In this document: in pieces, positions 1 through 47,181 of the stretch | How positions within the stretch are numbered: position 1 is the first letter of the stretch | Layout of the letters: every line of letters begins with the position of its first letter | DNA from: Oceaniferula flava | GTDB lineage: Bacteria > Verrucomicrobiota > Verrucomicrobiia > Verrucomicrobiales > Akkermansiaceae | Direction of reading: 5' to 3' | Assembly: GCF_016811075.1 (NCBI RefSeq) | Contig: NZ_JAFBGL010000001.1 | Span: forward strand, 620,001 to 684,000 | Length of the DNA: 64,000 bases | Translations under genes and position numbers: made by a program | Notes under the pieces: generated by a model | Told to the model about the DNA's origin: nothing | Databases searched by the model: none | What the model saw: only the letters and a program-made list of their open reading frames with translations

Positions 1-986
1 TCGCGGAAGGCGGGGGGAACCAGCATGCACATCGAGTGCTCCAGCGAGCGGCCGGAGAGGGTGAGTAGCTCCAGCGCGTGGTCGAGGCTGGCGGAGTCAC
101 TTTCGTCTTCGCGGAGAACATTCTTCAGCAGCTCGACATCTTCGCCCCAGATTTCGGATTCGAAGAATTCCTCACGGGAGGCCATCCAGTTGCGGTTGCC
201 GCGCACGGTGTTGATTTCCCCGTTGTGGCACATCATGCGGAATGGCTGACCGAGCGGCCAAGCGGGGAATGTGTTGGTGGAGAAACGTTGGTGGTAAAGA
301 CAGATGGCGGTCTCGAACTCAGGATTCTGGAGATCGAGGTAGAAGGCCTTGAGGGTGGCTGGCATGGCCAGGCCCTTGTAAGAGATCAATCGACTGGAAA
401 AGGAGGGGATGTAGAAGTTTTCAATCGTCTTGGTATCGCGCTCGATGCTGCGGCGGCAGAGGTAGAGCTGACGCTCAAAGTGATCGGCGTCCCAGCCCTC
501 GGGTTTTTCCATCAGCAGGTGGAGGATCTGCGGGCGGGTTTTCTGCGCCAGCTTGCCCAGCTCTTCAGGAGCCACGGGAGCCTCGCGCCAGCCAATCAGG
601 GAGATTCCGCGGGCCGCGATAGTTTTGGCCGTCAGCTGCTTGATTTCTTCCTGCGCAGCTTGGTCGTCGAAGGGGAGGAAGAATACGCCCACCGCCAGAT
701 CGGTATCGTCTTTCAGCTCGGTGCCGAATTCAGCGGCAGCCTTGCGGAAAATCGGGTAGGGGATCTGGCTGAGGATGCCTGAGCCGTCGCCGGTTTTCAT
801 ATCAGCGTCAACAGCTCCGCGGTGCGTCATGTTACATACGGACTCGATCGCCAAATCGACGATTTGATATGAGCGCTTGCCGTGGATGTTGGCAATCGCG
901 CCCATGCCGCAGTTATCTCTCTCGGTGGAGAAACTGTGCATGGATCCGGTGCTGTCTGGTGTGTTGTTGTGATATGGGAATGACAT
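1..986 (-). CDS. gltB: Glutamate synthase large subunit, N-terminal part (partial)
   Basis: The minus strand is open from an ATG at 984-986 to the left edge, giving about 328 residues of the N-terminal glutamine amidotransferase (class II) domain. This domain releases ammonia from glutamine for the synthesis of glutamate from 2-oxoglutarate. The likely nucleophile is Cys26 in the motif NCGMG. It is followed by MTHRGAVDADMKTGDGSG and later by a LSGRSLEHSMCMLVPPAF stretch, both typical of GltB. Family members of this kind are usually made with a short propeptide that is cleaved before the cysteine, and the 25 residues before Cys26 fit that. The FMN and glutamate synthase domains lie outside the window, so completeness cannot be judged. 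The long open frames on the plus strand here are antisense shadows. Confidence 0.95.
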   Translation of the reverse strand, partial: MSFPYHNNTPDSTGSMHSFSTERDNCGMGAIANIHGKRSYQIVDLAIESVCNMTHRGAVDADMKTGDGSGILSQIPYPIFRKAAAEFGTELKDDTDLAVGVFFLPFDDQAAQEEIKQLTAKTIAARGISLIGWREAPVAPEELGKLAQKTRPQILHLLMEKPEGWDADHFERQLYLCRRSIERDTKTIENFYIPSFSSRLISYKGLAMPATLKAFYLDLQNPEFETAICLYHQRFSTNTFPAWPLGQPFRMMCHNGEINTVRGNRNWMASREEFFESEIWGEDVELLKNVLREDESDSASLDHALELLTLSGRSLEHSMCMLVPPAFR

Positions 987-1148
987 GATGAGAAAAACTG
1001 ATTCGTTGAAAATGAGGGGCTTGTCTTCAGGGTGGAAGTCGAAGCTCGTCATCGGGCGATTCGGCGGCAGAGCAATTAAGCCCTTAGCAGGTCGCTTGCC
1101 AAGTGCGAAGTCTGTCAGGACAAAGGCGGAGCGAGGGGGCTGAAATGG

Positions 1149-1628
1149 TTAGATTTTGCCGGACAGAAGCACGATAGCCGAGATTCCGATGGTGACTAGA
1201 TAGAGGATCAGCATGATGAGGATCATGATTCCCATTTGAGTCCAGAACGTTCGCTGGTGGGCGATCGCTTGCTCGAGATCCTCGATGCGATGGCTGATGT
1301 TGAGCCGGGTGATCGAGCGCTCGTATCTCGAGAGTCTGAGAGAGGGGATGATGAACAGCACTGCCAGCACCAGGTAGAAGGAAGCCAGCAGGATGATTGA
1401 GAGCAGAGGAAAGCTGCCCAGCATCTTGCGCGCGGTCATCGCCGCGATAATCAGGATGAACCCTGCTGTGATATAACCGGCTAAGCTACAGAATTTCACC
1501 CAAGGGCGGGTATGACGCAGGTGCTCTACCACCAGTGCGGGAGCCTCGCCGGGCTGCTGTGGGGCGGAGTCATGCCACTCCTCGATCTCGGGAGACTCCA
1601 AGGGTGGGCGGTAGGGATCTTCGTTCAC
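1149..1628 (-). CDS. DUF5362-like small membrane protein
   Basis: A 159-residue protein starting at a GTG. The first 35 residues are acidic and proline-rich (NEDPYRPPLESPEIEEW), then comes a conserved-looking LRHTRPWVKF segment leading into three or four hydrophobic helices (about residues 45-65, 72-96 and 132-158). The soluble stretch between them contains a short amphipathic helix with several Arg and Glu. The arrangement N-terminal PYRPP plus TRPWVKF resembles DUF5362-type proteins that I know as membrane proteins of unknown role. It stands alone between gltB and the divergent MATE gene. No function is assigned. Confidence 0.7.
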   Translation of the reverse strand: MNEDPYRPPLESPEIEEWHDSAPQQPGEAPALVVEHLRHTRPWVKFCSLAGYITAGFILIIAAMTARKMLGSFPLLSIILLASFYLVLAVLFIIPSLRLSRYERSITRLNISHRIEDLEQAIAHQRTFWTQMGIMILIMLILYLVTIGISAIVLLSGKI

Positions 1629-1745
1629 GGGCCAGATTCTAATCTCTTAAAACAAATTTTGGCACTTCCAAGTTACGAAAAAGAACGATAGTTCGGTGCT
1701 CGTCACCGCGATGACTTGAAGTTATCCAGTGGTCATTAGCAAAAA

Positions 1746-3224
1746 ATGAGTAGTGAGGAATTCCAGGCCGTGGAGAGTGGCGACGGGCTATCGGTGATCG
1801 ATGAGCCCCCGGCCGTTGCTGTGCCGATGGAGTTAGGTGGGAAGCTTGCCGGCCTCTCACTACCTCGGCAGGTGCTGGCTCTTGCGCTGTGGCCATTTTT
1901 ACAAAACCTGATGGGCGTGGGTGTCGGTTTCGCAGACATGATGATCGCGGGCCGGATGGAAAGTGGCGAAGCCAGTGAGGCAGTCATGGATATGATGGGA
2001 GCAGGCATGTATCTTATGTGGCTGCTGATGATTCTTCAAGGGGCGATGGCGACTGGTGCGATGGCCTTGGTGTCACGTGCCACCGGCGCACGTGATATTA
2101 AATCGGCCAACCTTGCCCTGGGGCAGTCGCTGCTACTGGGAGTGGTCTCCGGTTTCCTCAGTGGGGTGCTGATCTGGCTGGTGGTTCCTCACATGGGGCG
2201 TTTCTTCGGTCTGAGTGACTTGGCTCAGGAATATGTGGTGGATTACATGCGCATCGGAGCTCTGTTGGCTCCGTTCAGTGGTGTGATGTTTGTCGCCAGC
2301 AGTTGCCTGCGAGCTTATGGCGATACGGTGAAGCCCTTTATGGCGATGCTGTTAGTCAATGTGATCAACGTTGGTGTCAGCCTCTATTTTGTTTATGAAC
2401 TCGGCTGGGGCGTGCAAGGCCTTGCCGGCGGCACGGTGATCGGCTGGGCCTGCGGCGCGGCGATGATTCTCTGGTTCCTGCGCCCCGGTGGTGGACTGAG
2501 TCAGCGCCAATCCAAGAAAAGCGCAAATTCATTGGACCCACTGGTGCTGCGCTTGGAAAACATGCGCTACGATATGCCAATGCTGCGCCGAATCTGGCGG
2601 ATTAGCTGGCCGTCGATGATCGAAATCATCGGTATGTGGTCGGTGCATGCCGTGGGGGTCTATTTTATCGGCTCGATGAAAGCGGGCACCATTGGGGCAC
2701 ATGCGATGGTGGTTCGTCTGGAGTCGGTGAGTTTCATGCCGGGGTTCGCCATTGGCATGGCGGCGAGCACACTCACCGGTCAGTATCTCGGCGCCAAGGA
2801 TCCGGAAATGGCGAAAAAGGCAGTGCGTTTCTGCTGGGTTCTGGCCGTGGTGACCATGGGAGGTGCTGGCGTTTTGATCTCCGTGTTTAATACCGAATTC
2901 CTCGCATTGTTCGGCGATCCGTCGTCGGCCCAATTCCAGATGGCGGCACCGGTTATTCGCTTTGTTGGTCTGATGCAGGTGCTGACGGCCTCGATGATGG
3001 TGATGAAAATGTCGATGCGTGGTGCGGGGGATACGCGCACGGTGACGATCTATTCATTCACCTCCATGGGCTTGATCCGGGTGGGAGTGCTCTGGTGGGT
3101 CATCCGGAATTACGACATCGACCTGATGGGGATTTGGCAGGTGATGATCTGTGATGTGCTGCTGCAAAGTGCAATCTTCGTCTGGCTCCACTTCCGCGGC
3201 CGCTGGCTGACAAGGGAGGTGTAA
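1746..3224 (+). CDS. MATE family efflux transporter
   Basis: A 492-residue polytopic inner-membrane protein with about 12 hydrophobic segments, arranged as two similar halves as in the MATE (multidrug and toxin extrusion) family. Recognisable family-like stretches are ALWPFLQNLMGVGVGFADMM near residue 55 and ISWPSMIEIIGMWSVHAVG near 290, which are the equivalent first helices of each half. MATE proteins exchange Na+ or H+ for cationic compounds. The first 45 residues are soluble and acidic, which is longer than usual, so the start could be further downstream. No dedicated regulator is adjacent, so the substrate cannot be inferred. It converges with the gene ending at 3233. Confidence 0.9.
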   Translation: MSSEEFQAVESGDGLSVIDEPPAVAVPMELGGKLAGLSLPRQVLALALWPFLQNLMGVGVGFADMMIAGRMESGEASEAVMDMMGAGMYLMWLLMILQGAMATGAMALVSRATGARDIKSANLALGQSLLLGVVSGFLSGVLIWLVVPHMGRFFGLSDLAQEYVVDYMRIGALLAPFSGVMFVASSCLRAYGDTVKPFMAMLLVNVINVGVSLYFVYELGWGVQGLAGGTVIGWACGAAMILWFLRPGGGLSQRQSKKSANSLDPLVLRLENMRYDMPMLRRIWRISWPSMIEIIGMWSVHAVGVYFIGSMKAGTIGAHAMVVRLESVSFMPGFAIGMAASTLTGQYLGAKDPEMAKKAVRFCWVLAVVTMGGAGVLISVFNTEFLALFGDPSSAQFQMAAPVIRFVGLMQVLTASMMVMKMSMRGAGDTRTVTIYSFTSMGLIRVGVLWWVIRNYDIDLMGIWQVMICDVLLQSAIFVWLHFRGRWLTREV

Positions 3225-3232
3225 TTAGTAAG

Positions 3233-3925
3233 CTATTTCTGGAGCAGGCGACGCCAGCGTGAGCGTTTCCTTTTTTTCGAAAAACCGGGGATTCCCGTTT
3301 TGATTCGGCTGAAGGAGGTGGCGTCGGTGGTGAGAAAGTCTGGAGGGCTGGCTTGCTCGAGATCGCGGATCGCTTTTTCGAACTGTTGACCGACCTCGGC
3401 GCTGATCGTCCGAGTTGCGGCGTCGATGATTTTGGTGACCGTCTCATCGTCGCACAGTTCCGGCAGTGGTTTCGCCGGAGCATAGGCAGCCCCCTGATCC
3501 AACATTTCATCATAGAGGTCGGCCAAGATCAGCACGAGGTAATCGCGGTCATCCGAGGTTAGAGGATTGACGCCCTTCATGGATGAGTAGTTGTGCACCA
3601 AGGTTTCAATATCAGCACCCACGATGGCACGGAGGTATTGCCGTTTCTCGGGAGTCATCCCTAATTTGTCGCCAAAACTGCCGTAAAGATAGGCCGAGTG
3701 TAACATGCCGGCAACCACCATGTCAGGGCGCTCGCCCCAGTGCGCGAGCACGCTGGCGGTGCCGATCAAATGGCAAACGAAAGGCTTTTGGTTGGGGCGA
3801 TAGGCATTGGCAAAGAGCTTTTGCGAAACATCGTAAGCGGCCCTCACGGTGGTGAGATCGGCATCGCTCCAACGGGCTTCCCTAAGCTGATTGTATAGCT
3901 GCAGATTCGTTTGTGCGACGTTCAT
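3233..3925 (-). CDS. DUF6817-like (degenerate HD-domain) protein
   Basis: A 230-residue cytoplasmic protein. Residues 40-80 read like an altered HD phosphohydrolase: a KPFVCHLIGTASVL helix with His52, then VVAGMLHSAY with His76. In the RelA/SpoT-type HD fold this last motif would be HD, but here the Asp is Ser. This resembles the DUF6817 family, often found beside glycosyltransferases. The C-terminus is strongly basic (KKRKRSRWRRLLQK). It begins 2 nt after the stop of the glycosyltransferase upstream, so the two are co-transcribed and may act in the same surface-glycan process. The function is not known to me. Confidence 0.65.
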   Translation of the reverse strand: MNVAQTNLQLYNQLREARWSDADLTTVRAAYDVSQKLFANAYRPNQKPFVCHLIGTASVLAHWGERPDMVVAGMLHSAYLYGSFGDKLGMTPEKRQYLRAIVGADIETLVHNYSSMKGVNPLTSDDRDYLVLILADLYDEMLDQGAAYAPAKPLPELCDDETVTKIIDAATRTISAEVGQQFEKAIRDLEQASPPDFLTTDATSFSRIKTGIPGFSKKRKRSRWRRLLQK

Positions 3926-3927
3926 GT

Positions 3928-4908
3928 TTAGGCGGGGTATTTAAAGCGATTCCAGCGATGCTCCAAGGGACTGAAGATTTTCTTCTCGTAGAACCGTCCG
4001 ACTTTTTTGCCAAACATTTTGCGAACCTTACGAATACTCCCACAGGCGTATCGGCGGTGCATCCGAAGCCACTTCAGACCCGGGTTCTTCTTTTTGGGGT
4101 GGGGATCCAGACCCCATTTTTGATCGAAGTGTTCTTGGTTGGCGCTGATCTTTGCCTCGCTCCATCGGGAGAAGAAGAAATCACGATCTTCGCGTGTCAA
4201 TTTCGAGGGGGGCACATAGGTGATTTTAGAAGCCGGCTCGAGCCAGATCTCATATCCATGTTGGGTGGCTGTCATGGAAATATCGCCATGCTCAGCGTGG
4301 CAGACCAAGCCATCGTCAAAGCCTCCAATTTTCGTTAGAAAATCCATGCGAACCAGCACCGTGTGAAATTCAATCAACTCCGTGGTCTTCCGCACGAGTT
4401 CGGACTCCAATTTTTCGACAGGGAGGTGTTGGCAGTCGTGATGTTCGTAGTAGGCCAGTCGGTCATGTTTATTGCGTTTGATGCCACAGACACCGCCATA
4501 CATATGGATTTTTGAGCATTCCGGGAGGTGCTCATAATAAGTGGGGCCTACGAGCCCAGCCTTTGTCTCTTCGGCACATTGTACCAGCGCAGACAGCCAG
4601 TCCTTGCTCACCAAGACGTCATTGTCCACGAACACCATGTAATCTGTGTCGGTGTTTTTCTTGGCCCAATCATAGGCCATGTTACGTGCACGGTTCGGGG
4701 TTAAGTAGGACTCGGTGCGGATGAGAGTAAAGCCTTTCTCTTTGGAGAACTTTTCCAGAAACGACTTTGTTTTTGAGTCGGAATTGCCATCGATACAGAC
4801 TAGGTCAAATGGCGTATCGGTGATCTCATAAAGCCTTCTCAGGCTTTTTTCGGTGGTGCTAAAGACCTCTCTGGGGACAAAGGCGACAACGGGGCAATCA
4901 CTGGGCAT
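3928..4908 (-). CDS. Glycosyltransferase family 2 protein
   Basis: A 326-residue GT-A fold glycosyltransferase. The N-terminal nucleotide-binding half has the β-strand VCIDGNSDSKT and the acidic metal/nucleotide motif DND at residues 95-97 (VFVDNDVLVS). GT2 enzymes move a sugar from a nucleotide-sugar to a growing glycan. No membrane segment is visible, so it is probably a cytoplasmic or peripheral enzyme. The C-terminal 80 residues are very rich in Lys and Arg, which could dock it to the membrane. It is the first gene of a two-gene operon with the DUF6817-like gene and is divergent from another GT2 gene. Confidence 0.88.
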   Translation of the reverse strand: MPSDCPVVAFVPREVFSTTEKSLRRLYEITDTPFDLVCIDGNSDSKTKSFLEKFSKEKGFTLIRTESYLTPNRARNMAYDWAKKNTDTDYMVFVDNDVLVSKDWLSALVQCAEETKAGLVGPTYYEHLPECSKIHMYGGVCGIKRNKHDRLAYYEHHDCQHLPVEKLESELVRKTTELIEFHTVLVRMDFLTKIGGFDDGLVCHAEHGDISMTATQHGYEIWLEPASKITYVPPSKLTREDRDFFFSRWSEAKISANQEHFDQKWGLDPHPKKKNPGLKWLRMHRRYACGSIRKVRKMFGKKVGRFYEKKIFSPLEHRWNRFKYPA

Positions 4909-5083
4909 GCGGTTAGGTTATGGTATAAAATTCCATTTAGTCAGCTAAAAAACTTGCCTAAGCCAAATTCAAGTCATGAGGTGTCGGCGTTGAGAAACTA
5001 GTGATGCTTATTTTAACGCAATAAGCTGCGATGTCCTAAGCTTCTCTTCGCCTCGATCCCACCTTCACCGATTCAACTTTGTC

Positions 5084-5998
5084 ATGGAACAACCCCTCGT
5101 GAGCATCGTGATTCCCTGCTACAATGCAGCGACCTATCTCGAAGCGTGTTTGCAAAGCCTCTACGCGCAAACCTACCCTCATTTGGAAATCATTTTGATC
5201 GACGACGGTTCGAGCGATGGCACCTTGGAAATCATCAAGCAGCAAGGTGACCGCGTTCTCTACCGCACTGGTCCGAACCAAGGGGCGAATGCTGCGCGCA
5301 ACACCGGCATGGATATGGCACGGGGAAAATATCTGAAGTTCTTCGATGCTGATGATATCATGTTGCGTGACGCCATCGCTATGCAGGTGGATGGCATGGA
5401 GAAGTTGCAGCCTCATCAATTTATCTATGGTGATGTGGTAGACCTCGACAGCAAGAAGCCGGTTTTTGACAATATTTTTACCTCTTCAGAGGTCACGCGG
5501 GATGAAATGATTTATCAGCTATTTGAAGGGAATATCCTGACTGGCTGCCCCCTTCATCAACGGCAGTTTATCGTTGATCATGGTCTGCGTTTCGAAGAGT
5601 GTTTGTTATCGGCGCAGGAGTGGGATTTTCATCTTCAAATTGCACTCGCTGGTGGGATCTTTGTGCATCAAGACACACTGATTTATTATTATCGTGATCA
5701 TGATGAGCCCGACCGCATCAATCAGGTGATGAAGCAGCGTGAAGTAAAACTCAGGGAATTCTGTCTGCGTTACGAGGTAGCATGTCCCAAAATCATTGCT
5801 GGATACGCCAATCAAGTGATGTATCCACCGATAAAAACGATCATCCGTAATCGTCTCGCTAAGATAGAAGCCAAACTTGTTCGGGCGAAGCAACAAGATG
5901 AAGCGTTGAACGTGCGTGAGATTCGCAAGGACCTGGACCCGCTGTGGCGCGTTCTATTGATGGATCTTCGCTATATTTGTCGACGACATTTCAAATGA
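5084..5998 (+). CDS. Glycosyltransferase family 2 protein
   Basis: A 304-residue GT2 enzyme starting with the classic VSIVIPCYNAATYLEACL signature, then LIDDGSSDGT at residues 39-47 (nucleotide binding) and the DXD motif FFDADD at 87-91. The C-terminal 60 residues are basic and helical. It lacks transmembrane helices and would act at the cytoplasmic face of the membrane on surface polysaccharide or a lipid-linked glycan. It is divergent from the other GT2 gene across a 175-bp AT-rich spacer. No polymerase or flippase is in view, so the glycan is unknown. Confidence 0.9.
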   Translation: MEQPLVSIVIPCYNAATYLEACLQSLYAQTYPHLEIILIDDGSSDGTLEIIKQQGDRVLYRTGPNQGANAARNTGMDMARGKYLKFFDADDIMLRDAIAMQVDGMEKLQPHQFIYGDVVDLDSKKPVFDNIFTSSEVTRDEMIYQLFEGNILTGCPLHQRQFIVDHGLRFEECLLSAQEWDFHLQIALAGGIFVHQDTLIYYYRDHDEPDRINQVMKQREVKLREFCLRYEVACPKIIAGYANQVMYPPIKTIIRNRLAKIEAKLVRAKQQDEALNVREIRKDLDPLWRVLLMDLRYICRRHFK

Positions 5999-42628: not shown

Positions 42629-43528
42629 ATGAAACAACTCACAGACATCGGTGAAGATGCGTTGATTGCCCGACTGGTGCGAGACCTGGAATCGGGTGCC
42701 GATGTGGTGACCGGACCGGGCGACGACTGTGCGGTGGTGGACATCGGACATGCCGACCGGTATCAACTTTTAAAAACCGACTGTCTGGTGGAGGGGGTGC
42801 ATTATCTCGCCGATGCCGAGGCTGAAAAAGTAGGTTGGAAAGCGATCGCCAGAGTGGTCAGCGATTTTGCCGCAATGGGTGGCACGCCTTCGCAACTTCT
42901 GGTCACCCTGGTGATGCCCGGTGGGCAATCGGTGGACTATCTCGAGCAGCTGTATCGCGGCATGCAGCAATGCGCGGCGCAATTCGGTGCGGTGATCAGC
43001 GGAGGTGAAACCAGTTCCGTGCCGACCGGTTCAGCCGCGGTGATCTCGGTCGCCGGCACCGGCTGGGTGCGCAAAGACCAGTTGGTTTTGCGCAGTGGTG
43101 GGCAGGTAGGCGACCTGGTGATGGTGACTGGCTTGTTAGGTGGCTCCATCCGTGGAAAACACCTCAGCTTCACACCGCGTGTCACTGAGGCGGCGTGGCT
43201 GGCCGAATACTTTCCGCTGCACGCGATGATGGATCTCTCCGATGGGGTGGCGAAGGATTTACCCCGACTCGCGACCATGAGTGGCTGCGGATTTATCATT
43301 CGGGAGGATCAGGTGCCCTGTTCGGAAAACGTCGACGTGGCGGCAGCCTTGGGAGATGGCGAAGACTACGAGCTGCTGTTCACGATCGCTCCCGATCATT
43401 TGGAGCGACTGCAGAGTGAGTGGGGGCGGCAATTTCCCGATCTCGCCCTCAGTGTGTTGGGTGAACTGACTGTGGCAGAGGTAGGGATTCAGTCGGAGGC
43501 TGGCGGCTGGGAACATTTCACATCCTGA
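42629..43528 (+). CDS. thiL: Thiamine-monophosphate kinase
   Basis: A 299-residue ATP-dependent kinase making thiamine diphosphate. It has the PurM-like N-terminal half with PGDDCAVV, LLKTDCLVEGVHYLADA and DFAAMGGTPSQLLVTLVMP, and the C-terminal MMDLSDGVAKDL followed by GEDYELLFTI. The start at 42629 (MKQLTDIGE) fits the family. Its 3' end overlaps the end of the convergent Lgt-like gene by 40 nt. Confidence 0.95.
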   Translation: MKQLTDIGEDALIARLVRDLESGADVVTGPGDDCAVVDIGHADRYQLLKTDCLVEGVHYLADAEAEKVGWKAIARVVSDFAAMGGTPSQLLVTLVMPGGQSVDYLEQLYRGMQQCAAQFGAVISGGETSSVPTGSAAVISVAGTGWVRKDQLVLRSGGQVGDLVMVTGLLGGSIRGKHLSFTPRVTEAAWLAEYFPLHAMMDLSDGVAKDLPRLATMSGCGFIIREDQVPCSENVDVAAALGDGEDYELLFTIAPDHLERLQSEWGRQFPDLALSVLGELTVAEVGIQSEAGGWEHFTS

Positions 43529-44208
43529 CGGAGCGTCCGCTTGCGTCTGACGTAAGCGACTCCACCCAGTAGTGCGATGGCCAGGGCGATCAGCTGATAG
43601 CCGGACATTCCGGCGAAGGGCTTGGGGGTGGCACGGAGGAACTCGTGGAAAAAGCGGAACAGGCCGTATGCCATCAGGTAGAGGTGGAAGTGCTGCCACT
43701 GCTGGGATCGCCTGCGTCGCAGCCAGATGAAGACGAGGATCGCTGCGACATTGAAGGCGATCTCCATCGGCACTGCCGGCCAGCGATTGATCCCCGCCGG
43801 GAGTTGGCAGGCTATGCCCGGGCAGCATCCCTGACTCAGACATCCGAATCGTCCCAAGATGATGCTGATGGGCACAATAAGGGCGAAACGGTCACCGGTG
43901 ATCTTACGGTATCCGAACCATTTCTTGAAGACCTCAACACCCAGATAGCCTCCTAACAGAGCTCCGGTGATCGATTTTCCCGACAGCCAATGCAGCCATC
44001 GATCGTCGCCGGTATGCATCCACCCTTCGGAAACGAGGTAGGCCAATTTCGCTCCCACGAAGGCACAGGCGAGGGCGCAGAAGTAAACCTTCGGGAGGAG
44101 GGCGTCATCACGCGACATCTGGAGCCAATAAAAGGCACTCAGTAAGATCGCTGCCAGCATCGTCAGGCTATACCAGCTGAGCGATGTGTTCTGGAGAATC
44201 TCAGGCAT
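43489..44208 (-). CDS. Lgt-like membrane protein (prolipoprotein diacylglyceryl transferase family)
   Basis: A 239-residue membrane protein with about seven helices. The central region KSITGALLGGYLGVEVFKKWFG followed by IVPISIILGRFGCLSQGCCPG has the Lgt layout (a first GG-rich motif, then the conserved G-R-x-G after a D/P-containing helix). The usual GRIGNFINGE motif is replaced by GRFGCLSQGCC. True Lgt moves diacylglycerol to lipoprotein cysteines. This is a divergent relative, so the acceptor may differ. The start overlaps the stop of the preceding gene by 8 nt (coupled). Part of a psd-radical SAM group. Confidence 0.72.
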   Translation of the reverse strand: MPEILQNTSLSWYSLTMLAAILLSAFYWLQMSRDDALLPKVYFCALACAFVGAKLAYLVSEGWMHTGDDRWLHWLSGKSITGALLGGYLGVEVFKKWFGYRKITGDRFALIVPISIILGRFGCLSQGCCPGIACQLPAGINRWPAVPMEIAFNVAAILVFIWLRRRRSQQWQHFHLYLMAYGLFRFFHEFLRATPKPFAGMSGYQLIALAIALLGGVAYVRRKRTLRQDVKCSQPPASD

Positions 44209-44623
44209 TGGCGACGATGGCAACTGCGCAGAGGCCAAAGGCCAGAACGATGACGGTTGCTGGAGCGACGAGGATTTGCCAGAAGGCGAATTTGACACTG
44301 TGCTCTAACAGAGGTTGTAAAAGTGGGGTTCCATTTTCCTTGGGAACACCGGGCGCTAGGAAGGCGTCACAGGCGCCGATCAACAATGTGATGATTGCAG
44401 CTAAAAACAGATACACCGCCCCGTGCAGTGGGTAAAAATTATAGCCTAGACTAAGCAATATTAAACAAGTTGGCCCAGGAGATATCCAGATCATGAAGCG
44501 GAAAAACTTGATCCCAGGGTTCGGTTCGCTACGTAACAAGGGCTGTTGTGGCGGATGCCTTTGTTCGAGGTCGAACACGTCTTCCAAGGGCGACTGTGGA
44601 TCTTTTGGTGGCACGGGTTCCAT
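44201..44623 (-). CDS. Small membrane protein of unknown function
   Basis: A 140-residue protein with a hydrophilic, Pro-rich N-terminus (PPKDPQSPLEDVFDLEQR) and three or four membrane helices (about residues 42-62, 66-88 and 110-138). I do not recognise the family. It lies 5 nt after the radical SAM gene and overlaps the Lgt-like gene, so the three are co-transcribed and probably act together. Confidence 0.65.
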   Translation of the reverse strand: MEPVPPKDPQSPLEDVFDLEQRHPPQQPLLRSEPNPGIKFFRFMIWISPGPTCLILLSLGYNFYPLHGAVYLFLAAIITLLIGACDAFLAPGVPKENGTPLLQPLLEHSVKFAFWQILVAPATVIVLAFGLCAVAIVANA

Positions 44624-44628
44624 GATGT

Positions 44629-46011
44629 CTAACTGTTTTGTATTCCGGAGTGATAATAGCGGCAGAAGGAATCTAGTTTTCCATCGGGGCGGATGACATG
44701 GGTGCAGCAGCGGTCGATGCGATCTTCATCCCAGGTCCATGAATCCATGAAGGGTTTGATGAACAGGCGGAAGGTATCTTTTTCCTCCATTTCGAACTTG
44801 TGCAGAAGTTCACCTAAGGCGGTGTTCTCACAGCCGCATTGCTGCAGGTCCGCCAGCTCGTAACGCACCTTGTCCTGGAGGAAATCCTGCACCGTGGAGA
44901 AATCGATGAAGTCGCTGATGGAGCGCACACCGAGGGGAGTTTTCAGCAAATACCCAATCGTCGCGCAGTTGGGATCGCCACAGGGGAGGGGTGTAAAATC
45001 TTCGAACTTGATGGTTCCGTCCGACTGATCGACGCAGCCTAAAATAATATCCGCGGCATTTAGTCGTGATGCTTCGGGTGTGAGTTGATTCGCAGCAATG
45101 CCGTCGGGCATCCGGCCCGACCAGAACATCGGTTGAAAACTGACTCCGCGGCAGTTGTCGTGGGCAAGGCCGAACTGGATGGTGCTCCAGAGCTCGGCGA
45201 CGTTCTGAGGGGTGACGGTCATGGCGAGAGTGACGGGAATGTTTTCCTGCGCACAGCGTTCCATGACGCGTTGTTTCATCGCTCTGAGGTCCCCACCGCG
45301 CAGAGCTTTCTGAGCTTCCGGGCCGGTGCCATCGAACTGCAGGTAGAGTTGGAAATTGCCACGGCGCGCCCGTTGCCCCAGTTCGGTGAGGAAAACATCG
45401 TCCTTGGCGATGAGAACACCGTTGGTATTGACCAAGACATAATCGATGCCGTCACGCTCATGAATCCAATCGAGCAGTTCGAAAAACTGCGGGTGCAAGG
45501 TGGGCTCGCCACCGGAGAGTTGCAGGATCTCGATGTTCTTTTTACGATCTAACACACCTTCGATGCGTTCTTGGATGTTTTCCAATGAGTGGTAGTCCAG
45601 CTTCTCATTGACGCCGGTCGGTGAGGCGGCGAAGCACGTGGGGCAAGCCAGATTACAGGAATCGACAATTTCGATCAGCGCGAGGCAGGTCGAGAGCGTT
45701 TCCACCGTCTGTCCCTTCTCGGCAAGTGCATTTCTCCCCAAGGTGCCATCGTTGCCGGTAGGGTCCGCGCAGCAGGCGCCACTACCGCAGCAGGCATTAT
45801 CGTCGCTGCCCTTCGACATCCAGTAGAACCGAGCATCGGAAGAAATACACATGCTCGCCTCGCCGTGTTCTGGGCAGGTGCGCGTGAGGTAAACTTTCGA
45901 TGGGGTTGCATTGGTTTTCCAAACCTCTGCGGGGCAAAGGTCATGGCAAACCGGGCAGCGTGAGCGGGTGTGCTTGAGATGGGTTCGGAAGGATGGAAGA
46001 GAAGCAATCAT
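44629..46011 (-). CDS. Radical SAM protein, MJ0619/Tes-like
   Basis: A 460-residue enzyme. An N-terminal Cys-rich part (Cys19, 22, 26, 46 and the pairs CC at 74-75 and 80-81) is followed by the SAM-cluster motif CNLACPTCF (Cys119, 123, 126), ILQLSGGEPTLHP and YVLVNTNGV. A further Cys-rich C-terminus has CGDPNC, QCGCEN and RCCTHVIRPDGK. The CNLxCPxCF motif and N-terminal zinc-ribbon-like cysteines are typical of the family that includes the pterin methylase MJ0619 and archaeal tetraether lipid synthase. Its neighbours (psd, an Lgt relative) favour a lipid substrate, but that is an inference. Confidence 0.75.
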   Translation of the reverse strand: MIASLPSFRTHLKHTRSRCPVCHDLCPAEVWKTNATPSKVYLTRTCPEHGEASMCISSDARFYWMSKGSDDNACCGSGACCADPTGNDGTLGRNALAEKGQTVETLSTCLALIEIVDSCNLACPTCFAASPTGVNEKLDYHSLENIQERIEGVLDRKKNIEILQLSGGEPTLHPQFFELLDWIHERDGIDYVLVNTNGVLIAKDDVFLTELGQRARRGNFQLYLQFDGTGPEAQKALRGGDLRAMKQRVMERCAQENIPVTLAMTVTPQNVAELWSTIQFGLAHDNCRGVSFQPMFWSGRMPDGIAANQLTPEASRLNAADIILGCVDQSDGTIKFEDFTPLPCGDPNCATIGYLLKTPLGVRSISDFIDFSTVQDFLQDKVRYELADLQQCGCENTALGELLHKFEMEEKDTFRLFIKPFMDSWTWDEDRIDRCCTHVIRPDGKLDSFCRYYHSGIQNS

Positions 46012-46082
46012 AGAAGGTCTTTGATGCTTCTAACACAGCCTCCACGGATCGAAGAATCGAAAAAACAACCGAAAACATCGGC

Positions 46083-47012
46083 TCAAGCAATGCTTCCCAT
46101 GGTGTCACCCATACGGGCGTAAGTTTCCACCTGCTTCGCTGAATTGGCTAACAAATCATCGGCGAGCTGGATTTTCCCCGGCTCAAAAACGGTGATCGTG
46201 GAAGATCCGCCAAAGGCAAAGTATCCCTTCTCGGCGCCTTTGGTCATCGCTTGGTTAGCTTGATAGGTCTGCAAAATGCTGCCCACACAGGTGGCACCAA
46301 TTTCCAACATCAGCACGGTCCCCATCGATTCGGTCTCGATCTGAGTGACGGTGCGTTTGTTTTCCCAAAGGTAAGCGAGCCTGCGGCGAAGCGCGATGGG
46401 GGAGACGGAAAACAGCGGACCGTTGATCAGTTGGGTCTCCCCGGGTGTGCCGCTCACTGGGAAGTGAAAGCGATGGTAATCCACCGGGCAGAGGCGGGAG
46501 AGAACCAGCGATCCACCACGGAATCGCTCGGTCAACTGGTCATCGACTAACAACTTGGCCAGATCGAACTGCTGGCCTTTGACAAAAAATCCACCGATGT
46601 CATCGATGTTGGCAAAACCGAGATGTCGGCCGTCGGCAGGGAAAACCACCTCGGCGTCAGAGACTGGGCGGGCTTCCTGCTTGAGCTTGCGATAGAAAAA
46701 CTCATTGAAGGTGGCGTAGCTCTCCGGTGCATCGGCAAACTCGGCGGCATCCATATCATAGTCATCGATGAATGGCAGCACCTTGCTCTGGCTCTCGGGC
46801 TGATCCATCCTGTGGCCATACCATTTCGAAAAGAAAGGACGTTTCACGAAGCTGTGCAGCGCGATTTTTCCCAATGGATTGCCGTAGGCCCACTGCAGGA
46901 AGCTTTCACCGTAGACCTGCTCGGTTTCCATCGTCTGCGAATAGCGGTTGTAATACTGGATCTCTTTCACTGGCGCGGAGACTAGCACTAGCGAAGCCGC
47001 AGCGACCAGCAT
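46083..47012 (-). CDS. psd: Phosphatidylserine decarboxylase proenzyme
   Basis: A 309-residue enzyme that makes phosphatidylethanolamine from phosphatidylserine. The self-cleavage motif GGSST near residue 280 (FAFGGSSTITVF) gives the pyruvoyl group. VFPADGRHLG and CPVDYHRFHFPVSG contain the Asp and His used in processing. It is the longer type with N-terminal FNEFFYRKLKQEARP. The frame is open up to 47078, but that start lies inside a terminator hairpin, so the start at 47012, just after it, is preferred. The adjacent minus-strand genes (radical SAM, Lgt-like) may share its lipid theme. Confidence 0.93.
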   Translation of the reverse strand: MLVAAASLVLVSAPVKEIQYYNRYSQTMETEQVYGESFLQWAYGNPLGKIALHSFVKRPFFSKWYGHRMDQPESQSKVLPFIDDYDMDAAEFADAPESYATFNEFFYRKLKQEARPVSDAEVVFPADGRHLGFANIDDIGGFFVKGQQFDLAKLLVDDQLTERFRGGSLVLSRLCPVDYHRFHFPVSGTPGETQLINGPLFSVSPIALRRRLAYLWENKRTVTQIETESMGTVLMLEIGATCVGSILQTYQANQAMTKGAEKGYFAFGGSSTITVFEPGKIQLADDLLANSAKQVETYARMGDTMGSIA

Positions 47013-47043
47013 AACCCGCAGCGATGATTGTAGAATGAGGTAC

Positions 47044-47075
47044 AAAAAAACAGGCGGGGAGAAGCTCCCCGCCTG
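47044..47075 (-). terminator. Rho-independent terminator of the AP2-like gene
   Basis: CAGGCGGGGAG (47051-47061) and CTCCCCGCCTG (47065-47075) form a perfect 11-bp stem with a 3-nt loop. On the minus strand seven T follow. It lies 106 nt after the stop of the small gene at 47182 and before psd. Confidence 0.92.
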
Positions 47076-47181
47076 CATATATGGAATTCTTTGTTTGGTT
47101 AGTTTGTTAGTAGAGGCCTAACCCTGTTAAATCGATTAAATGGGACCGATGCTGGTTCTCGACCGTGACGTTCGCCTTCGC

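Follow-up and report, generated by a model that had tools for sequence, protein, structure and literature searches.

A Tes-fold radical SAM enzyme, a second Lgt and small membrane proteins form a conserved unit: a candidate system for protein lipidation

Why does a divergent relative of the lipoprotein diacylglyceryl transferase Lgt lie next to a radical S-adenosylmethionine (SAM) enzyme and a small membrane protein? The question is raised by four minus-strand genes within a stretch of 64,000 nucleotides of Oceaniferula flava (contig NZ_JAFBGL010000001.1, positions 620,001 to 684,000), referred to as the window. All four genes are present as first described: psd for phosphatidylserine decarboxylase, the gene of the radical SAM enzyme (rSAM), the gene of a small membrane protein and the gene of the Lgt relative (Lgt-like). 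An earlier note, made from the letters of the sequence, had interpreted them as one group for the modification of membrane lipids or lipoproteins, for example of a lipid derived from phosphatidylethanolamine (PE). Order and spacing of the genes as well as the motifs CNLACPTCF and GRFGC....GCC were read in the sequence as claimed. The conserved unit consists of rSAM, Lgt-like and small proteins with two to three transmembrane (TM) segments, and psd is excluded from it. This unit suggests an undescribed route of attaching lipids to small membrane proteins and of modifying them. The explanation favored here, to which we give slightly better than an even chance, is a dedicated protein-lipidation system in which Lgt-like would lipidate a cysteine of the small proteins while rSAM would modify the lipid or the lipidated protein.

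Conservation and spread of the gene pair

To describe the neighborhood of rSAM, the best 80 of 145 encoded relatives were used, one genome per species being scanned; nearly all of them carry a name from the Verrucomicrobiota. Lgt-like shares the locus with rSAM in 72 of the 80 cases and is on the same strand in 71, and in 57 of the latter its longest open reading frame (ORF) starts no more than 500 nt past the rSAM stop. In six of the eight loci without Lgt-like, the contig breaks off no more than 1.14 kb past rSAM, and the genomes of the remaining two (L033 and L054) encode Lgt-like elsewhere. When all ORFs of the neighborhoods were clustered, rSAM and Lgt-like made up the only near-universal clusters. 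Small membrane proteins formed clusters spanning at most 11 loci, and the larger clusters that remained were taken for shadow ORFs. At least one small ORF with a cysteine motif, described below, occurs in 69 of the 80 loci. The set of rSAM, Lgt-like and, usually, small membrane proteins is conserved. Besides the window, psd was seen at a single locus of the set (L019, from the same genome as L002). As psd is rare at other rSAM loci and its stop codon precedes weak sites resembling terminators, it was rejected as a member of the unit. Of the four-gene group proposed before, rSAM, Lgt-like and usually the small membrane proteins belong together. The idea that all four products jointly modify a PE-derived lipid could draw on the adjacency of the genes in the window and at L002/L019, but it is most improbable with psd at one locus in 80. 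A PE-derived substrate found no support; lipid or lipoprotein modification is still the likeliest field.

The association of rSAM and Lgt-like is far beyond chance. In a census of 60 genomes of the window's family, Lgt proteins were classified by score and coverage as canonical, split pieces of canonical or second Lgt. Canonical Lgt is present in all 60 genomes, the divergent second Lgt in 12 and a full-length rSAM match in 11. All 11 genomes with full-length rSAM possess the second Lgt, compared to one of the 49 others (Fisher p = 3.5e-11, or 4.1e-10 if an rSAM fragment counts as carrier). The twelfth second Lgt is from G032, a genome of 84% completeness in which no rSAM was found, and lies close to the end of its contig. 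In two genomes (G322 and G363), the genes are unlinked, lying on separate contigs or 333 kb apart, and both are retained. The rSAM gene of G434 (L169) contains one in-frame stop, and G435, a genome without Lgt-like, has only a fragment of rSAM (L193, 4123-4704), which suggests that the system has been lost in some lineages.

Among 387 genomes of the phylum, 13 gave an rSAM match, seven of the main clade and six distant ones (28-35% identity). Lgt-like adjoins rSAM in five of the six distant Verrucomicrobiota (L187-L191; rSAM identity 30-35%). A tblastn search of plasmids with rSAM yielded 40 records, nine of which covered at least 80% of the query. Six plasmids were inspected. On four of them (Mycobacterium branderi, M. 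avium, Nonomuraea and Persicobacter), Lgt-like adjoins rSAM or is one to two small genes away, and the same four plasmids reached the top bit scores among the eight records of a reverse search with Lgt-like of the window. The plasmids of M. vanbaalenii and Halorarius carry a methyltransferase gene after rSAM and no Lgt nearby. The pair spans three bacterial phyla. A gene with a methyltransferase domain follows a Tes-like rSAM gene on a Mycolicibacterium plasmid (L105, 5965-8333) and on a haloarchaeal plasmid (L108, 5013-7176).

In a tree of 27 rSAM rows, 22 Lgt-linked proteins split from MJ0619 and four unlinked ones with a support of 88/80, which is not strong in view of the long branches. 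Within this set, which contained no Mss sequences, rSAM was not grouped with proteins known to act on something other than lipids. Neither of the two outcomes named in the earlier note as refuting its idea, such a grouping or a lack of conservation in related genomes, was therefore observed. The Lgt tree separates 21 rSAM-linked Lgt-likes from 11 canonical Lgts with a support of 100/99. Distances of rSAM and Lgt-like correlate (r = 0.95 for 21 pairs, reached by none of 5000 permutations; r = 0.81 for the 12 inside the main clade), a result that shared descent would give as well.

Properties of the two enzymes

The assignment of rSAM to the MJ0619/Tes kind in the earlier note agrees with the predicted structure. 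Among PDB sequences, MJ0619 (7tol/7tom) matched best, and an AlphaFold model (mean pLDDT, the predicted local distance difference test, 75; residues 67-108 poor) matched 7tom with Z 37.4 over 405 aligned residues at a root-mean-square deviation of 3.2. The next family reached Z 19.6, and SuiB (Z 18.8) and SkfB are remoter structural relatives. By the curated standard, rSAM belongs to neither TrsS nor Tes because it is under both NCBIfam cut-offs, scoring 214.4 bits over residues 14-455 with its top model TrsS (NF045646, cut-off 490) and 176.9 bits with the Tes model (NF045702, cut-off 450). The window protein possesses the rubredoxin-type ligands C19/C22/C46/H49 and the radical SAM (RS) cluster cysteines C119/C123/C126. 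Among 13 main-clade rows, two are gapped at the rubredoxin ligands C9/C12 and two have Cys instead of His36. The N-terminal cluster motif of Tes, CPxDCGLCPxH (C73/C77/C80 and His), has kept its CxxxCxxC in all six distant and Persicobacter rows. Main-clade proteins exhibit a Cys-rich stretch, mostly without His, at this site, and six of the 13 rows align all three Cys, while none of the three is aligned in the actinobacterial rows. The window protein reveals C-G-C within its Cys-rich stretch and no His, at a place where the confidence of the model is poor. Met439 and Tyr459 of Tes are replaced by Lys and Val in all 13 main-clade and all three actinobacterial rows. Since Tes mutants at both positions are still active in vitro, according to the accessible text of PMC9433317, this loss fails to exclude lipid chemistry. 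The same text describes that Tes binds two phospholipids, E. coli phospholipids included, with their tails in hydrophobic pockets. Lipid-directed chemistry of rSAM is favored because it shares its fold with an enzyme that takes lipid tails; we put the chance that rSAM acts on a lipid a little below even, and chemistry directed at a protein comes next. Acyl-chain joining in the manner of Tes is neither shown nor excluded. An anti-phage role was dismissed, as PADLOC gave only viperin matches (at most 54 bits, five proteins) for the rSAMs.

That Lgt-like is a divergent Lgt relative, as the note had also stated, is evident from PF01790 (88 bits, cut-off 24.9), while the TIGR00544 equivalog was missed (45 bits, cut-off 118.9). 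Its model (pLDDT 92.8) matched E. coli Lgt (5azb) with Z 12.8, the next best being 5.6. For a comparison of residues, 77 Lgt-likes and 37 canonical Lgts were aligned (E. coli numbering). Leaving gaps aside, R143, Y235 and R239 do not vary in either group (R143 is present in all 77 Lgt-likes), E202 and E243 are constant in all ungapped Lgt-like rows and nearly so in canonical Lgts, and G154 is kept. By contrast, the histidine of the HGGL motif (H103), present in 34 of the 37 canonical proteins, occurs in none of the Lgt-likes (Leu 29, Thr 20, Met 16, Val 11, Ile 1). N146 is changed to Cys and M100 to Lys or Arg in all 77, E151 is Cys in 73, Glu in three and Thr in one, and N149 and Y30 are mostly changed. 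The accessible text of PMC4728403 reports that H103 is essential in E. coli and proposes that it binds the acceptor peptide; E151 is said there to bind phosphatidylglycerol (PG) at the first site. So Lgt-like has retained the catalytic site, with an altered acceptor side and a partly altered lipid-binding network.

The two enzymes by themselves would also suit a lipid pathway without a protein substrate, in which rSAM, like Tes and Mss, makes a coupled or membrane-spanning bacterial lipid, Lgt-like shifts glyceryl or diacylglyceryl groups between lipids and the small proteins are subunits or adaptors. The close match to Tes and the two phospholipids held by that enzyme, E. coli lipids among them (PMC9433317, accessible text), are in line with this possibility, and the altered signature residues of Lgt-like would permit another substrate. 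A related pair of rSAM genes in G388 (L192) also points in this direction: at 344-5438, two Tes/TrsS-like rSAM genes with Zn-ribbons are situated amid genes that read, by eye from their sequences, like FabG, FabF and FabZ. Possibly, L192 represents a different lipid pathway built on the same enzyme family. However, a pathway of free lipids leaves unexplained why the partner should be an Lgt and why very divergent small proteins, in multiple copies and also at unlinked loci, bear a lipobox-like cysteine; Met439 and Tyr459 of Tes, moreover, are not kept, even though mutants at both work in vitro. We regard this pathway as rather unlikely.

Small membrane proteins with a lipobox-like cysteine

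The small membrane protein is not a bystander but appears to be the key to the unit, being one of a divergent set whose constant is a lipobox-like Cys in the C-terminal region. To count such proteins, all six-frame ORFs of 50-230 amino acids with two to four hydrophobic segments, the last of them near the C-terminus, were considered, and the Cys motif was written as [GAS](x)C within the last 25 residues. Within 1.5 kb of the pair, 142 small TM ORFs lie on its strand compared to six on the opposite strand; the other 442 kb of locus sequence contain 13, and 400 kb taken from the genome of the window (G000) contain 17. The motif is present in 116 of the 142 ORFs near the pair and in 10 of the 36 controls (1/6, 2/13 and 7/17, respectively). 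Two to five ORFs with the motif occur in 30 of the 80 loci. Around 30 canonical lgt genes (115 kb), no such small TM ORF was detected. The window's 64 kb contain three small TM ORFs, of which only the 140-aa protein has the C-terminal Cys motif. In an automated rerun, no small protein was flagged in L107 and L109, though they are plain by eye there, and none in L171-L174 was convincing.

A Cys anywhere among the final 25 residues is found in 128 small proteins, which fell into 84 clusters at 40% identity. In an alignment of one subfamily (11 proteins), the Cys forms one of six invariant columns. Among the motif-filtered proteins, a selection which favors G/A/S, position -1 is G/A/S in 88%, position -2 G/A in 60% and position -3 Phe in 41%; when the filter is omitted, G/A/S occupies -1 in 89 of the 128 proteins, against a background of 29%. 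The tail past the Cys has a median length of eight residues. In the window protein, Leu directly precedes the Cys and Gly is at -2. In 73 of 86 three-segment proteins, the loop before the last helix contains more Lys and Arg than the first loop, in three it contains fewer and ten are ties, whereas the C-terminal tails of the 86 proteins have on average 0.55 Lys plus Arg. Due to this excess of positive charges before the last helix, the motif Cys should be positioned at the outer end of this helix, on the membrane side where Lgt acts. By pattern, an N-terminal zinc-ribbon-like arrangement (CxxC..CxxC) is seen in 14 of the 116 motif proteins and a proline-rich N-terminus in 48, in each case ahead of the helices (e.g., L070, 4389-4793; L042, 5458-5952).

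Several endings were found after the motif had been defined. In Persicobacter, an ORF of 59 amino acids, overlapping the rSAM stop by 4 nt, ends VIGTGICGSLLS (GTGICGSLLS), and small proteins of the distant Verrucomicrobiota end GSCFALFSFSQ (L187), GVCFNILKDL (L189), GSCFALVSYN (L190) and GACFGMANGCR (L191, by eye). The small proteins of Mycobacterium and Nonomuraea, which end GxCTGxNPxxY plus a few residues, had already come to light when the pattern was drawn up. As substrates, the small proteins would be expected at other loci in genomes with an unlinked pair. Cys-motif small proteins were indeed found away from both genes in G322 (two places) and G363 (three places), which did not supply rows to the following profile. 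This profile of one subfamily matched seven of the 12 genomes with Lgt-like, 11 of which have rSAM, and one of 12 genomes lacking it (p = 0.027); G322 and G363 are among the genomes matched.

Small ORFs that occur in several copies and diverge rapidly next to a radical SAM gene, with SuiB and SkfB as more distant structural relatives of the enzyme, recall the maturation of ribosomally synthesized and post-translationally modified peptides (RiPPs). In such a case, rSAM would modify the small proteins, e.g., at the Cys or at residues of the tail, prior to insertion, and Lgt-like would anchor or release the product. Yet the products resemble three-helix membrane proteins instead of leader-core peptides, the Pfam scan of rSAM detected no SPASM or leader-binding domain and the Z score with SuiB is far from that with Tes, so that a RiPP-like maturation is unlikely. 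The Cys might also have a redox or metal-binding role in a small electron carrier of the membrane that serves rSAM, with Lgt-like acting elsewhere, which would agree with the N-terminal ribbons in one group of small proteins. This is very unlikely since the outer end of the helix, where the Cys is placed by the charge pattern, is the wrong side for a cytoplasmic rSAM, and the strict partnership with Lgt-like would have no explanation.

The features of the window are summarized in Table 1. The gap between psd and rSAM amounts to 71 nt and that between rSAM and the small gene to 5 nt. The small gene and Lgt-like overlap by 8 nt, provided that Lgt-like starts with the ATG at 44208; its longest ORF begins with the GTG at 44298. 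The listed psd start overlaps a GC-rich hairpin of 12 bp and the T-run behind it (47050-47078), and therefore the true start is probably located further downstream. The genome of O. flava also harbors a canonical Lgt away from the locus.

Table 1. Coordinates of the genes and motifs of the locus, given as positions of the window
Feature	Position	Strand	Basis and remarks
psd, phosphatidylserine decarboxylase gene	46083-47078	-	PF02666, 172 bits; neighbor outside the conserved unit
rSAM, 460-aa radical SAM enzyme with the MJ0619/Tes fold	44629-46011	-	PF04055, 60 bits, and N-terminal Zn-ribbon PF23545; Tes-fold match 7tom
CX3CX2C motif of rSAM (C119, C123, C126; CNLACPTC)	45634-45657	-	Sequence; invariant in both rSAM alignments
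Small membrane protein, 140 aa, proposed substrate	44201-44623	-	Without Pfam or NCBIfam family
Codon of Cys132, lipobox-like cysteine (VLAFGLC-AVAIVANA)	44228-44230	-	Sequence; comparable Cys in small proteins of neighbors
Lgt-like, divergent Lgt, 239 aa	43489-44208	-	PF01790, 88 bits; model fold similar to E. coli Lgt (5azb)
Lgt-like signature GRFGCLSQGCC, replacing GRxGNFxNxE of Lgt	43822-43854	-	Sequence comparison

A lipidation system and its relation to known systems

Linkage of the genes, their co-occurrence, the folds, the conserved residues, the Cys motif and the charge pattern are observed, whereas the substrates, the donor lipid, the rSAM reaction, the sequence of steps and the biological role of a dedicated lipidation system are inferred. 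In this system, polytopic membrane proteins of small size, of which a locus encodes one to five and some are encoded elsewhere, would insert with a K/R-rich cytoplasmic loop and a last helix running from inside to outside. At the outer end of this helix, a lipobox-like [F/L/W]-[G/A]-[G/A/S]-Cys would be exposed, followed by a tail of approximately eight residues, so that the geometry would mimic a lipoprotein signal peptide placed at the C-terminus. Lgt-like would then transfer a diacylglyceryl group onto the Cys, while the canonical Lgt of the same cell would handle ordinary lipoproteins. Afterwards or before, the Tes-fold rSAM would modify the attached lipid or the lipidated protein by C-H activation, and in one branch an ICMT/PEMT-like methyltransferase might join in. 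Because the second Lgt has kept the catalytic site but a changed acceptor motif, and nearby small proteins offer a well-placed lipobox-like Cys, S-diacylglycerylation of this Cys by Lgt-like is the best reading of this step and is, on the sequence evidence, probable. A far bolder version, in which Lgt-like adds the diacylglyceryl group and rSAM joins an acyl-chain end to a lipid chain of the opposite leaflet (or to a sulfur), thereby creating a protein-borne membrane-spanning anchor, is improbable. If it were true, protein lipidation and the chemistry of membrane-spanning lipids would be one process. In the branch mentioned, the gene of the methyltransferase is located between rSAM and Lgt-like (L187, 4090-4746; L190, 3853-4455; L191, 4641-5300, minus strand). 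A methyl transfer to a lipidated C-terminus would suit this enzyme, although it could also act on phospholipid.

A number of points weigh against a dedicated lipidation system. The Cys motif was noticed by eye first and its pattern written later, this loose pattern also fits seven of the 17 small TM ORFs counted in the 400 kb from G000, and 11 of the 80 loci have no qualifying small ORF. The first, greedy ORF calling gave only 35 of 80 loci, compared to 69 in the six-frame count; in our reading, longer ORFs in other frames had displaced real small ORFs, leading to an undercount. Position -3 is mostly Phe, unlike the Leu of classical lipoboxes, and in L188 the Cys box (AFGVC, LYGTC) follows the first helix and is not C-terminal. 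The topology of the small proteins is deduced from hydropathy and charge. Without the two genomes that supplied profile rows, the profile matched five of 10 genomes compared to one of 12 (p = 0.056), and if G032, in which no rSAM was found, is dropped too, four of nine (p = 0.12). G352 has a small three-helix Cys-box protein (L205, 4288-4632) and no rSAM or Lgt-like match; this protein may be a remnant or be used by canonical Lgt. Conversely, the sixth distant genome, G388, has two Tes-like rSAMs and no Lgt-like match. As E151, said to bind PG, is mostly replaced, and N146 and mostly N149 and Y30 of the polar network are also changed, the donor lipid of Lgt-like may differ. Finally, a cytoplasmic rSAM and an Lgt acting on the periplasmic side need not share a substrate.

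Should the proposal be true, bacteria would possess a dedicated second Lgt which lipidates small polytopic membrane proteins at a C-terminal lipobox, and searches for lipoproteins by N-terminal signal peptides would miss such proteins. In published screens (PMC8941075 and PMC11868695, accessible text), bacterial Tes homologues are counted as candidates for the synthesis of branched glycerol dialkyl glycerol tetraethers (brGDGTs), which are membrane-spanning lipids. These counts could then include Tes-like rSAMs serving protein lipidation. In addition, bacterial Tes-like radical SAM enzymes would be given a concrete context, with proposed substrates and a partner for direct tests of the chemistry.

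A search of the open-licence PMC literature retrieved no paper that connects radical SAM proteins to relatives of Lgt and no description of the unit. With Tes (GDGT-MAS, MJ0619), rSAM shares the fold over 405 residues, the RS motif CX3CX2C, the rubredoxin-type C-C-C-H of the window protein and, in the window's branch, the Cys pair 455/456. It differs from Tes in its low identity (25-29%), the score far below the NCBIfam cut-off, the loss of Met439/Tyr459, what appears to be another Cys-rich stretch in place of CPxDCGLCPxH, a position across a tree branch (88/80) and the company of Lgt-like and small proteins. TrsS (NF045646) is the best-scoring NCBIfam model with 214 bits, below its cut-off of 490. 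Mss acts on bacterial lipids, and its models are said to retain the catalytic architecture of Tes (PMC13274423, accessible text). Lgt-like has in common with Lgt, the phosphatidylglycerol:prolipoprotein diacylglyceryl transferase, the PF01790 domain, the predicted fold and R143/G154/E202/Y235/R239/E243. What separates it are the missing His103 of HGGL, the changes Asn146 to Cys, Met100 to Lys/Arg (77/77) and Glu151 to Cys (73/77), its separate branch and its coexistence with a canonical Lgt. Like lipoprotein substrates of Lgt, most small proteins have, by sequence statistics, a Cys preceded by G/A/S where a helix that comes after a K/R region reaches its predicted outer end. They are unlike them in the place of the Cys, which is a median of eight residues from the C-terminus (after helix 1 in the exceptional L188) and not behind an N-terminal signal peptide that LspA would remove. 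The nearest published idea found is the MYXO-CTERM/myxosortase system, for which the accessible text of PMC11980579 describes a C-terminal Cys signature with proposed Lgt-like lipidation, an inverted topology and a CPBP protease, without mention there of radical SAM. Both systems would thus have lipidation at a C-terminal Cys signature by an Lgt-like protein in common. In MYXO-CTERM proteins, however, the Cys is followed by a helix and an Arg-rich cytoplasmic tail, and a CPBP protease takes part, whereas in the unit presented here the Cys comes after a helix predicted to run from inside to outside, and the additional partner is a Tes-fold radical SAM enzyme.

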